This document shows positions 8,036-12,733 of a DNA stretch of 64,000 nt, piece after piece. The translations under genes were made by a program, and so were the position numbers. Numbering within the stretch: position 1 is the first letter of the stretch; every line of letters begins with the position of its first letter. Origin of the DNA: Hydrogenophaga sp. (GTDB lineage: Bacteria; Pseudomonadota; Gammaproteobacteria; Burkholderiales; Burkholderiaceae_C); NCBI GenBank assembly GCA_011391495.1, contig JAABQK010000002.1:1-64000 (forward strand), given 5' to 3'. The notes below the pieces were generated by a model, which did not search any database, was not told where the DNA came from, and was given only the letters and a program-made list of their open reading frames with translations.

Positions 8036-8073
8036 CAGACCGCCTGGTCGGTCCAGCCGACTCGAACATGGAA

Positions 8074-8100
8074 GGGGCGCCTATGGCGCCCTTTTCTTTT
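8074..8100 (+). terminator. Rho-independent terminator after pobA
   Basis: GGGCGCC-TAT-GGCGCCC-TTTTCTTTT. Confidence 0.85.
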
Positions 8101-8249
8101 GGCCGACCGTTTTGCACGCCCTGGCCCAAAGCCCGCATCGCTGGGCACAACACCCCACACAAGCGCGGGAACTTACCGCTCCTTACATGGCACTTAATAT
8201 CTGTGTAAGTTGCACATTCCATAATCATCCACTTCATGCATCCACGGTC

Positions 8250-9122
8250 ATGACACCACTGCTTCCACCCCAAGCCCCGAATCCTCAGGCTGACCAGCAC
8301 GCATTGCTCCATGCGCTGGACAGCCTGCTGGAGCCATTGGCCTGGCTCTGCGTTAGCAAGACCATCTCGATACAGACGGTGGAAGAGCACCTGAGGCAAG
8401 CCTTCGTACGAGCGGCTCGCCAAGCGAGCGAAGGCGCCAACCCGGACCGTCTCAACAGCCGCATCAGCACACTGACCGGACTGACCCGGCGCGAGGTGAC
8501 CCGCATCCAGGGACTGGAACAACCCGCCAGACCGCCCAGCCACACCCCCGTCGCGGCGATCCTGACGCTCTGGCTTTCACTGCCCGACTACCAGAACGGA
8601 ACCGAAGGCCCCTTGGAGCTGCCCCGCACGGGAGCGGCACCCAGCTTTGAAGCGCTGGCCCAGAGCATCACCAAAGACGTTCACCCGCGCTCCCTGCTGG
8701 ACGCCATGACCCGCCTCCACCTCGTGGTGCGGGACGAGGCCTCCGACCGCGTGCGCCTCGTCCAGAACGCTTATGTGCCACGCAACGACTGGACAGAGAT
8801 GATGCGTTTTCTGGGGGCCAACACGGGCGACCACCTGCGCGCCGCGGTGGCGAACGTACTGGGCTCCGGAGACCAACATTTTGAACAGGCCCTGTACGCC
8901 GACGAGCTCTCGCCCGAGTCGCTGGTCAAGGCCCGCCAACTGATCAGCGATCAATGGCGCCGCCTGCTGACCGAGATGGTGCCCCAGCTGGAAGCCCTGA
9001 TGAAAGCCGACGCCGACGCTGGGCGTCCACAAACCCAAAGCCTGCGCCTGGGCTTGTATTCGTGGATGCAGGCCATGCCTGCATCCACAGCAATCAACCC
9101 ACAGACGGATTCCGAGGAATAA
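8250..9122 (+). CDS. DUF6502 family protein, putative DNA-binding regulator
   Basis: HTH-like segment LNSRISTLTGLTRREVTRIQGLE; start chosen at ATG 8250; 4 bp before the DUF5666 gene. Confidence 0.75.
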   Translation: MTPLLPPQAPNPQADQHALLHALDSLLEPLAWLCVSKTISIQTVEEHLRQAFVRAARQASEGANPDRLNSRISTLTGLTRREVTRIQGLEQPARPPSHTPVAAILTLWLSLPDYQNGTEGPLELPRTGAAPSFEALAQSITKDVHPRSLLDAMTRLHLVVRDEASDRVRLVQNAYVPRNDWTEMMRFLGANTGDHLRAAVANVLGSGDQHFEQALYADELSPESLVKARQLISDQWRRLLTEMVPQLEALMKADADAGRPQTQSLRLGLYSWMQAMPASTAINPQTDSEE

Positions 9123-9126
9123 AACC

Positions 9127-10320
9127 ATGCAGACCCATTTGTCTTACCGACTCCCCACCTTCAACCGCAGGCAAGCCCTGCTCGCTGTGTTGGGCAGCGC
9201 CTTCTTGCCCGGCTGCGGCGGCGGGACCGACGTCGCCGGGGTCAGCAGTGGCGGCACCGGTTCGTTCACCAGCGGCGTGATCGTTGGCCTCGGCTCCATC
9301 ATCGTCAACGGCATCCGCTACGACGACAGCACCGCCAGCGTGGCGATCGACGGGGTCACCAGCACCGCGACAGCCCTGCAACTGGGGATGGTGGTGCGAA
9401 TCCAGGGTTCGGCCGTCACGCCACCGACCACCGCCGGGGCACTGGCCACGGCGACGGCCACGAGCATCGCCTACGGCAGTGAATGGAAGGGGCCGGCGGA
9501 CGAGGTCAATGCCAGCGCCGGCACCTTCACCCTGTTGGGACAAACGGTGCGGGTGCTGGGCACCACCGTTTTCTCGGAGGGCAAGTTCGACGGCACGCTG
9601 ACGGGCAAATTCGTCGAGGTCTATGGCTTCGTCAACGCCAACGACGGCAGCCTGCAGGCCTCGCGGATCGAAGTCGAATCCGAGACGCCCGAGCGCTACC
9701 GCCTGAGCGGCATCGTCACCGACCTGAGCGCCACCTCCTTCCTGCTCGGCTCGGCCCTGATCAACCACGCCTCGGCCAGCAAGTCCGCCAACCTGCAGAA
9801 CGGACAATTGGTTCGGGTGGAACTGTTGACCACCCAGCAGGACGGCGCCTGGGTGGCCACCGAGATCAAGCTTGACGACTACAGCAACGAGCTGGAAGAC
9901 GACGACGAGGCCGAAATCGAAGGCGCCATCACCTCGTTCACCTCCGGCACCAGCTTCAGCGTCAACGGCATCCCCGTGGACGCCAGCCGCATCACACCGC
10001 CCGCCGGGCTGGCCCTGGGTGTTCGGGTGGAGGTCGAGGGGGCCATCAGCAGCGGCGTGGTGATCGCCGCCGAGATCGACATCAAGACGGACGACGAGGT
10101 CGAGTCGCAGGCCTTCGAGTTCCATGGCGCGATTTCCGCCCTGGACACCACCGCCCAGACGTTCGTGATTCGAGGCTACACCGTTCGCTACAACGGCAGC
10201 ACGACGTTCGAGCCCTCTGGCACCACATTGGCCGACGGTCTGTATGTCGAAGTCAAAGCCGAACTTCAGGCCAATGGCGACCTGCTGGCCACCAGGGTCG
10301 AAGTCAAAACCAACGACTGA
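9127..10320 (+). CDS. DUF5666 repeat protein, exported (Tat-like, lipobox-like FLPGC)
   Basis: NRRQALLAVLGSAFLPGCGGG leader; repeated beta-barrel-like units (VEVEGAI...V.AAEI, VEVKAEL..NGDLLATRVEVK). Confidence 0.78.
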   Translation: MQTHLSYRLPTFNRRQALLAVLGSAFLPGCGGGTDVAGVSSGGTGSFTSGVIVGLGSIIVNGIRYDDSTASVAIDGVTSTATALQLGMVVRIQGSAVTPPTTAGALATATATSIAYGSEWKGPADEVNASAGTFTLLGQTVRVLGTTVFSEGKFDGTLTGKFVEVYGFVNANDGSLQASRIEVESETPERYRLSGIVTDLSATSFLLGSALINHASASKSANLQNGQLVRVELLTTQQDGAWVATEIKLDDYSNELEDDDEAEIEGAITSFTSGTSFSVNGIPVDASRITPPAGLALGVRVEVEGAISSGVVIAAEIDIKTDDEVESQAFEFHGAISALDTTAQTFVIRGYTVRYNGSTTFEPSGTTLADGLYVEVKAELQANGDLLATRVEVKTND

Positions 10321-10388
10321 CCTGTCACGACGACATCCCCCATCACCACCGTCGCCGCGTGCGGCATCCACCCCAAGAAGGAAGACGC

Positions 10389-11246
10389 ATGAAGACCTCT
10401 CATTTCCCCGGCCGCCCCGGCGCCCGAGCGCGCCGCTGGCTGTCGCTGGCCGCGGCCGTCGCATGGGCCGCCTCGCTGTCCGCCTGCGGCGGCGGCAGCT
10501 CTGGCGCCAGTTCGACCAGCACCCAGGTTGCCACCTTCATCGACTCGGCCGTGGAGGGCCTGGCCTTCAAGTCGGCAAGCCGCAGTGGCCTGACCGACCG
10601 CCATGGCAACTTCCCCTACACACCGGGCGAGACCGTCACCTTTTCCATCGGCAACATGGTGCTGGGCAGCGTCACACCCACCGGCCACAAGGTCACGCCA
10701 CTGCAGATCGTTCCGGGCGCCACCAGCGCCACCGATGCGCGTGTGACGCGCATCCTGCGCACGCTACAGACCCTCGACAGCGACGGCAACCTGGAGAACG
10801 GCATCCAGATCACCGCCTGGGCGCGCGAAGTCGCCAGCCTCAAGCCCAGGATCCGCCTGGACGACGACAAGACCACCGACGACGACGTGAAAGAACGCCT
10901 GCCCAACGGGGACTACACCCGTACCGAAGACGAGGCCCGCCGGCACTTCGAGGACCACGAAGACGACGAGTCCAACGAGCACCTGGGCTACGACAGCAGC
11001 GGTTCGGGCTCCGGATCGCCGGTCGCTCAACCGGCCAACACCACCGGGCGCCTGCTCGCCTCCAACTGCTTCCAGTGCCACGGCACCCTGGGCCGGGGCG
11101 GCTTCGACAGCATCCGCGGTGGCGAGGCCAGCGAAGTCCGTGAGTACCTGGGCAAGGCAGCCAGCAGCGACATCATGGCCGCGCATGCGCAGGGCTACAC
11201 CCGCGCACAGCTCGACGCCATCGTCGCCTACCTCAACCAGCCCTGA
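10389..11246 (+). CDS. Monoheme cytochrome c lipoprotein with N-terminal surface-protein-like domain
   Basis: Lipobox LSAC; CFQCH heme motif (11067-11081); N-terminal GLTDRHGNFPYTPGETVTFSIGNMVLGS domain. Confidence 0.8.
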   Translation: MKTSHFPGRPGARARRWLSLAAAVAWAASLSACGGGSSGASSTSTQVATFIDSAVEGLAFKSASRSGLTDRHGNFPYTPGETVTFSIGNMVLGSVTPTGHKVTPLQIVPGATSATDARVTRILRTLQTLDSDGNLENGIQITAWAREVASLKPRIRLDDDKTTDDDVKERLPNGDYTRTEDEARRHFEDHEDDESNEHLGYDSSGSGSGSPVAQPANTTGRLLASNCFQCHGTLGRGGFDSIRGGEASEVREYLGKAASSDIMAAHAQGYTRAQLDAIVAYLNQP

Positions 11247-11261
11247 GCCAGGAGAAAAACC

Positions 11262-12686
11262 ATGACACAAAGCAAAGACATCCTGGCCCGCCGCCGCTGG
11301 CTGATGCTGGCTGGCGCCAGCGCGATCACCGCCCTTGTCCCTACTCTGGGCTGGAGCGACGACGATGAAGAGGAAGACGGTTCGGACGGCGGTAGCAACA
11401 CCGCCATCAGCCCCGCCTCCACCGGCCTGACCGGCAAGCTCGTGGTGGTGGGCGGTGGCATGGCTGGCGTCACCGCCGCCAAGTACCTGCGCCTGTGGGG
11501 CGGCAGTGGCCTGACCATCACCCTGGTCGAGCCCGCCACCACGTATGTCTCCAACATCATGAGCAACCTGGTGCTCAACGGCAGCCGCACGGTCACCAGC
11601 CTGGGCTACACCCACGGCAACCTCGGCACCAAGTACGGCGTGAACATCGTGCGCGCTGCGGTCATCGGCATCGACAAGGCCGCCCGCGTGATCACCCTGT
11701 CCGACGGCAGCCAGCTGCCCTACGACCGCCTGGTGCTGGCACCAGGTGTGGAGTTCGAAGACGCCTACGGCCTGACGCAGACCGACTACGAGACCCGCAC
11801 ACCCCACGCCTGGCGGGCCGGCCCGCAGACGCAGCTGCTGCGCGACCAGCTCGCCGCTATGCCCAACGGCGGCACCTTCGTCATGACCATCCCCAAGGCG
11901 CCCTACCGCTGCCCACCCGGCCCGTACGAGCGTGCCTGCCTGGTGGCCGACTTCCTCAAAACCTCCAAAGGTGCGGGCAGCAAGGTCATCGTGCTGGACG
12001 AAAACACGCCCGCCGACGCCGCCAACCCCTACTCCGCGATCCAGGCGGAAGTCCACACCTTCACACAGGCGTTCACCAGCACCCACGCCGGCATCATCGA
12101 CTACCAGTCCGGCGTGACGGGCATCCAGATCGACCCCGCCACCAAGGCGGTGAGCTACACCGACCGCATGGGCATCGCCCACTCGGTCAGCCCGCAGGTG
12201 GTCAACCCGATCCCGCCGCACCGTGCCACCGGCAGCAGTGCAACGGGCTGGCTCGCCCAGGCCGGACTGTCCAACAGCGCCAACGGCAAGTGGGCCGTGG
12301 TGAACGTGCTCAGCTTCGAGAGCACCGCGACGGGCGCTGCCGGCGTGCACATCATCGGTGACGCCTCGCAGTGCGGCCTGCCCAAAGCTGGCCACGTGGC
12401 CAACCAGGAAGCCAAGATCTGTGCCGACGCCATCGTGCGCGCGATGAGCGGCCAGCAGCCCGACCCCGCTCCCGTGGCGAACTCGGCCTGCTACTCGCCG
12501 ATCACCGCCACCACGGCCTCGTGGCTGACGGCGGTCTACCAGGTCGAAGGCGGCGCCTTCAAGGTGGCCAACGGCGGGGGCGTGACCGCGGGTGCCAAGC
12601 CGGTCGAAGCCAGCGGCCCGAGTGCAGAAAACTTCAAGGACATGAACACCTGGTTCAACGCATTGATGGGCGATTCCTTCGCCTGA
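11262..12686 (+). CDS. FAD-dependent oxidoreductase, FccB (flavocytochrome c sulfide dehydrogenase)-like
   Basis: Tat-like RRRWLMLAG leader, VVVGGGMAGVTAAKYLRL FAD motif, YRCPPGPYERAC, HIIGDAS.CGLPKAGHVAN, NSACYS. Confidence 0.85.
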   Translation: MTQSKDILARRRWLMLAGASAITALVPTLGWSDDDEEEDGSDGGSNTAISPASTGLTGKLVVVGGGMAGVTAAKYLRLWGGSGLTITLVEPATTYVSNIMSNLVLNGSRTVTSLGYTHGNLGTKYGVNIVRAAVIGIDKAARVITLSDGSQLPYDRLVLAPGVEFEDAYGLTQTDYETRTPHAWRAGPQTQLLRDQLAAMPNGGTFVMTIPKAPYRCPPGPYERACLVADFLKTSKGAGSKVIVLDENTPADAANPYSAIQAEVHTFTQAFTSTHAGIIDYQSGVTGIQIDPATKAVSYTDRMGIAHSVSPQVVNPIPPHRATGSSATGWLAQAGLSNSANGKWAVVNVLSFESTATGAAGVHIIGDASQCGLPKAGHVANQEAKICADAIVRAMSGQQPDPAPVANSACYSPITATTASWLTAVYQVEGGAFKVANGGGVTAGAKPVEASGPSAENFKDMNTWFNALMGDSFA

Positions 12687-12706: not shown

Positions 12707-12733
12707 CCAACGGGCGACGCTGTCGCCCGTTGG
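12707..12733 (+). terminator. Strong hairpin ending the redox cluster
   Basis: Perfect 12-bp stem CCAACGGGCGAC-GCT-GTCGCCCGTTGG; weak T-tract. Confidence 0.65.

Follow-up and report, generated by a model that had tools for sequence, protein, structure and literature searches.

The DUF6502–DUF5666–cytochrome–flavoprotein locus

We analysed a 64,000-nt stretch of Hydrogenophaga sp. DNA (assembly GCA_011391495.1, contig JAABQK010000002.1, positions 1 to 64,000 of the forward strand; hereafter the window) that carries genes for a DUF6502 protein, a DUF5666 lipoprotein, a chimeric cytochrome c and a flavoprotein resembling FccB, the flavin subunit of flavocytochrome c. A sequence-only reading of this DNA had described four same-strand genes with short gaps. 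Verification of the open reading frames bore this out: all four lie on the + strand, separated by 4, 68 and 15 bp. Gene 1 (8250–9122; 290 amino acids) matches PF20112 with an E value of 3e-20 and is a proposed DNA-binding regulator, with an N-terminal helix-turn-helix (HTH) containing TGLTRREVTRI predicted at 8442–8519 (+) in its AF2 model. Gene 2 (9127–10320) encodes four copies of PF18914 (E 1e-43), gene 3 (10389–11246) a cytochrome with a single CXXCH haem motif, CFQCH (11067–11081, +), and gene 4 (11262–12686) a protein in which PF21706 (E 6e-29) and PF09242 both score above cut-off. The export signals earlier ascribed to genes 2 to 4 are all present. The DUF5666 protein has an RR leader and the lipobox LPGC, the cytochrome a lipobox followed by a Gly linker, and the flavoprotein a Tat-like RR leader in which Arg11 is invariant in the alignment.

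The locus had also been placed between two hairpins. Upstream, an intrinsic-terminator-like hairpin (8070–8096, +; 12-bp stem followed by a U-run, dG −21.3, z −3.3) closes a pobA-type gene. The downstream hairpin (12708–12732, +; dG −25.7, z −4.8) folds stably, but its U-run is weak and it can be named as a possible terminator. A scan for a sigma-70 consensus promoter found none, and a plasmid search gave no match. DUF6502 occurs at one place only in this genome, as does DUF5666.

No published function for the DUF6502 family was found in the literature searched, and neither the DUF6502 nor the DUF5666 profile matched any PDB sequence. The low-confidence AF2 model of DUF6502 (pLDDT 65) contains an HTH plus an HTH-wing, winged-helix-like arrangement. 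Winged-helix regulators (MarR, IclR and MecI) appear in its weak, non-significant Foldseek list and likewise have palindromic sites near promoters; DUF6502 differs from them in lacking a significant sequence or fold match to any. The model, the palindromes described below and their co-variation with the HTH together suggest that gene 1, previously noted for an HTH-like segment, encodes a DNA-binding regulator.

In its model (pLDDT 73.5) DUF5666 forms a string of OB-type barrels. Foldseek returned S1 (1.5e-8) and cold-shock folds, and single domains resembled the periplasmic OB-fold proteins CusF (TMt up to 0.73) and PilY2. Unlike these, DUF5666 is a tandem lipoprotein array whose single domains are almost devoid of Met and His. 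No CusF-like copper site is therefore apparent, and a CusF-like copper chaperone was rejected despite the fold match. A tandem OB-fold lipoprotein would be suited to binding or scaffolding, in keeping with the scaffold or ligand-binding role first suggested for it.

A divergent flavocytochrome c clade and its linkage to DUF6502–DUF5666

The best solved relatives of the flavoprotein are the flavocytochrome c flavin subunits 5n1t, 3vrd and 1fcd (E 1e-62 to 1e-64). The C-terminal monohaem cytochrome c domain of gene 3 scores near cut-off for PF13442/PF00034, and its sole PDB match is 5n1t_B, the cytochrome subunit of Thioalkalivibrio flavocytochrome c (E 6e-6). Because both proteins match flavocytochrome c subunits, genes 3 and 4 are, by homology, of FccA and FccB type and constitute a divergent flavocytochrome c (FccAB) pair. 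They share with known FccAB the central and C-terminal FCSD domains, both catalytic cysteines, a Tat-like leader and an adjacent monohaem cytochrome homologous to 5n1t_B. The catalytic residues Cys217 (codon 11910–11912, +; FccB Cys161) and Cys410 (codon 12489–12491, +; FccB Cys337) are kept in all 105 aligned flavoproteins (65 clade members and 40 from outside).

Several features set the pair apart. Trees built from 105 and from 109 sequences place the window flavoprotein in a clade separate from all sampled canonical FccB with 100% SH-aLRT, and the suggestion that it is FCSD-like yet outside canonical FccB held up in this phylogeny. The clade has an NSACYS signature and Trp421 in 65/65 members, with His at that position in 33/40 sequences outside. 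The FAD-linking cysteine (Cys42) is lost in 46 of the 65 and kept in 39 of the 40; the window protein has Asn98 in its place and therefore lacks the residue for covalent FAD attachment. As flavoprotein loci were gathered by similarity to the window sequence, sampling of the clade is biased towards it.

The window cytochrome differs from FccA in two ways: it is a lipoprotein, and it carries a long extension at its N-terminus. It consists of a lipobox–Gly linker, an SslE/AcfD-like segment (residues 44–97), an acidic linker and the C-terminal monohaem FccA-type domain. The SslE match is short and below that model's cut-off; SslE membership was rejected and the match is taken as resemblance only. 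The earlier view of the cytochrome as something other than a canonical FccA thus applies to the N-terminal extension and fails for the haem domain, whose only PDB match is of FccA type. Unusual N-termini are frequent among the clade's cytochromes: a lipobox with Gly linker, Ig/pilus-like domains or acidic Ca-repeat-like stretches, and in the closest Zoogloea relatives an extension of ∼350 residues. Repeated fusion to varied lipoprotein, Ig-like and acidic-repeat N-termini is seen at L132:8762–9973, L133:8723–9952, L163:8808–9863 and L138:5728–6519. A lipid anchor was predicted on the cytochrome in 18 cases, on the flavoprotein in 9 and on both in none, a statistically weak pattern.

The organism's second FccB, on contig C9, falls outside the window flavoprotein's clade. 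It belongs to a canonical FccAB beside soxC, soxA, soxX and soxB (L054), so that the bacterium is probably a thiosulfate oxidiser equipped with two flavocytochromes c.

DUF6502–DUF5666 is a widespread gene pair in its own right. DUF6502 is present in 119 of 301 sampled genomes of the family. DUF5666 follows or accompanies it at 31 of 40 gammaproteobacterial loci and at most of 20 loci in the order, usually without the redox pair. Apart from generic families, the one neighbour that these loci had in common was a beta-barrel-like protein, seen at 6 loci. This exported protein lies just downstream at L120, L123, L125, L129, L140 and L268; the L140 copy is OMP_b-brl/DUF3187-like.

This gene pair has recurrently been joined to the flavoprotein clade. 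DUF6502/DUF5666 is linked to a clade flavoprotein at ∼11 loci in beta- and gammaproteobacteria, and the full co-directional four-gene order occurs in seven: the window, G052, a Zoogloea metagenome-assembled genome, Thiothrix UBA5583, T. lacustris, Cocleimonas and G761. T. fructosivorans has DUF5666–cytochrome–flavoprotein at a contig edge, and in Thiobacillus, Methylomonas and NOR5-3 the linked pairs are oriented differently. In G052 a gene for an RTX-repeat protein with 13 HemolysinCabind stretches lies between DUF5666 and the cytochrome (L053:5391–7022), and in Thiothrix (L158, L161 and L165) the pair is found near DUF1924 and DHC cytochromes, cytochrome b561-like proteins and a two-component system. 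All linked flavoproteins belong to the one clade, and none of 40 canonical FccB loci had a DUF6502 or DUF5666 neighbour. The ∼11 linked among roughly 70 clade members compare with a chance expectation of ∼0.2–1%, inferred from DUF6502 density, from which binomial values were computed. The tree needs nine linkage gains or losses, indicating a facultative linkage that was recurrently gained or repeatedly lost. The four genes proposed as one system are therefore a conserved unit in other genera but not an obligate one, each pair occurring mostly without the other.

These data bear on a simpler account, in which an ordinary sulfide dehydrogenase (FccAB) sits behind an unrelated DUF6502–DUF5666 pair and the adjacency means nothing functionally. 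The catalytic residues are indeed canonical, the two pairs usually occur apart, and a published comparison of fccAB contexts reported no conserved neighbours (PMC6382920). However, the linked fraction far exceeds expectation, in several genera and orientations, and the same operator precedes cytochrome–flavoprotein units that are physically separate from DUF6502 (below). We consider this account improbable; chance adjacency of the two pairs was rejected in view of the linkage counts together with operator sharing.

A palindrome upstream of DUF6502 and PCC3 genes

Upstream of gene 1 lies a palindrome of the form TGTG-N7-CACA, TGTGTAAGTTGCACA (8202–8216), 33 nt before the ATG. It is the sole TGTG-N7-CACA in the window and a candidate DUF6502 operator. 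Related DUF6502 genes have the same TGTG-type site upstream, and TGGGAATAAATTCCCA is a second candidate form of DUF6502 site. Most palindromes before DUF6502 genes read TGGGAW-N3/4-WTCCCA (A-type), the TGTG form (B-type) being that of the window's subclade. A palindrome was found in 31 of 70 DUF6502 upstream regions, as against 0.5% of shuffled sequences and 2.3% of random stretches from the same loci. The pattern classes come from the same upstream regions in which the sites were discovered; the later tests, on cytochrome and PCC3 promoters and in eight scanned genomes, used other genes and genomes.

The palindrome is conserved near the gene's own promoter and co-varies with the HTH. Nine of ten DUF6502 proteins with TGTG sites have RRE in the HTH, as in the window, and 31/31 with GGGA sites, where the motif was readable, have RKE or RKD. 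This agreement between operator type and recognition helix is evidence that DUF6502 itself recognises the palindrome. TGTG...CACA half-sites also resemble those of other families (CRP/FNR-like). This resemblance, and the absence of a significant fold match for DUF6502, would suit an alternative in which the palindromes belong to another regulator or to a nucleoid protein and DUF6502 does not bind DNA. Such an alternative sits poorly with the HTH co-variation and with genomes G043, G052, G082, G186 and G400, where the single site found at ≤1 mismatch is proximal to DUF6502. We regard it as unlikely. In the scan of eight genomes at ≤1 mismatch each had 1–5 distinct sites, and a reversed-pattern control gave 0.

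The sites are not confined to DUF6502 operons. In NOR5-3 a palindrome at 9255–9270 precedes a cytochrome start at 9314, and in Thiothrix UBA5583 one at 527–542 precedes the cytochrome of the first pair (start 575); both pairs lie outside the DUF6502 operon. Methylomonas has a shared site between divergent genes. In G260 a palindrome stands before the cytochrome–flavoprotein pair, ∼106 kb from a DUF6502 gene with a matching site. Two more palindromes in that genome (L287 and L293) stand before genes for small exported proteins, which may be additional regulon members.

A DUF6502-type palindrome also lies upstream of a cluster at about 50–58.7 kb on contig C1 of the window's own genome (L283). 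It precedes genes for an inner-membrane protein of the ∼300-residue class, two cytochromes with 24 and 36 CXXCH motifs and a candidate porin of ∼800 residues with a predicted C-terminal beta-barrel-like part. The inner-membrane protein has the motifs WX3HX13H and SGXXG, read from its sequence, which with the two multihaem cytochromes and the large candidate porin are the features of the PCC3 porin–cytochrome cluster (He et al. 2017; PMC5566968). PCC3 resembles the window operon in operator type and in its DUF6502/DUF5666 neighbours; in contrast, the window operon contains no porin, large multihaem cytochrome or inner-membrane protein. An orthologous PCC3 cluster in G260 is also preceded by a site and lies ∼3 kb from that genome's cytochrome–flavoprotein pair. 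The 22 PCC3-bearing genomes contain 24 genes for the inner-membrane protein of the cluster. An operator lies no more than 900 bp upstream of 8 of these genes (1.7% shuffled, 3.8% random), and DUF6502 and/or DUF5666 adjoins 6 of them, in 6 of the 22 genomes. PCC3 and DUF6502 co-occur above expectation (odds ratio 4.6, p 0.001). The literature searched describes no regulator of PCC3. The palindromes and their link to DUF6502, cytochrome–flavoprotein and PCC3 genes are new here and were absent from the sequence-only reading.

The sharing of operators with PCC3, and the few kilobases between PCC3 and the pair in G260, raise a further possibility: the pair might mainly exchange electrons with the PCC3 conduit rather than oxidise soluble sulfide. 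The flavoprotein would then be a redox relay or thiol–disulfide partner, and the extracellular donor or acceptor could be iron, minerals or solid sulfide. This would fit the acidic linkers and the lipoprotein, Ig-like or Ca-repeat-like N-termini to which the cytochromes are recurrently fused, as well as the canonical FccAB that the genome already has beside its Sox genes. On the other hand, many genomes that carry the clade show no sign of PCC3, each being present in 22 of the 301 family genomes with small overlap. We take this possibility seriously while holding it rather doubtful.

A proposed DUF6502 electron-transfer regulon

Our preferred reading, held with moderate confidence, is of a regulated operon under DUF6502 control that encodes a flavocytochrome bound to the envelope. 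The same operator before PCC3 clusters, here and in related genomes, makes it probable that the operon is one branch of a larger DUF6502 regulon, whose products would carry electrons across the periplasm and the outer membrane. DUF6502, a putative cytoplasmic DNA-binding regulator, would sense some cue and act on the palindrome at 8202–8216 to regulate its own operon as well as other electron-transfer genes in trans. The Thiothrix palindrome falls at the expected position of a −10 element, which would suit repression. The exported tandem OB-fold DUF5666 lipoprotein probably has an accessory or binding role and may keep a partner in place or present it. The Tat-exported flavoprotein would oxidise sulfide or a related reduced sulfur compound or thiol at its Cys217–Cys410 disulfide and FAD, and, judging from conserved residues, would hand the electrons to the lipid-anchored monohaem cytochrome.

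Several observations weigh against this reading. DUF6502 has no confident structural match (best Foldseek E 0.3). The operator pattern classes are drawn from their own discovery set, and about half of the DUF6502 upstream regions have no site of these patterns. The TGTG class is largely one DUF6502 clade, and the operator/HTH co-variation, resting mostly on that clade, does not represent many independent events. Most members of the flavoprotein clade have neither a linked DUF6502 nor an operator; G082 and G186 are among them, though their own DUF6502 genes carry B-type sites. A flavoprotein neighbour was found at none of the 40 gammaproteobacterial DUF6502 loci. The PCC3 site in the window's own genome is two mismatches from the window site, and when that genome was scanned at 2 mismatches, the window site by itself did no better than chance; a flank-extended pattern was needed.

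More tentatively, DUF6502 could be an unrecognised family of DNA-binding regulators for envelope electron transfer. It would read both palindrome types to co-ordinate DUF5666, the divergent flavocytochrome c and PCC3 in a sulfur-linked extracellular electron-transfer regulon of beta- and gammaproteobacteria. We consider this broader proposal plausible, short of probable.

Unlike the fccAB contexts compared previously (PMC6382920), those of the window flavoprotein clade have some conserved neighbours. The analysis offers testable functions for two common domains of unknown function, DUF6502 and DUF5666, and a candidate operator for which any genome can be scanned. It also connects a divergent flavocytochrome c clade with PCC3, for which a role as extracellular electron conduit has been proposed. 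In some bacteria an uncharacterised gene family may thus control the movement of electrons across the envelope.

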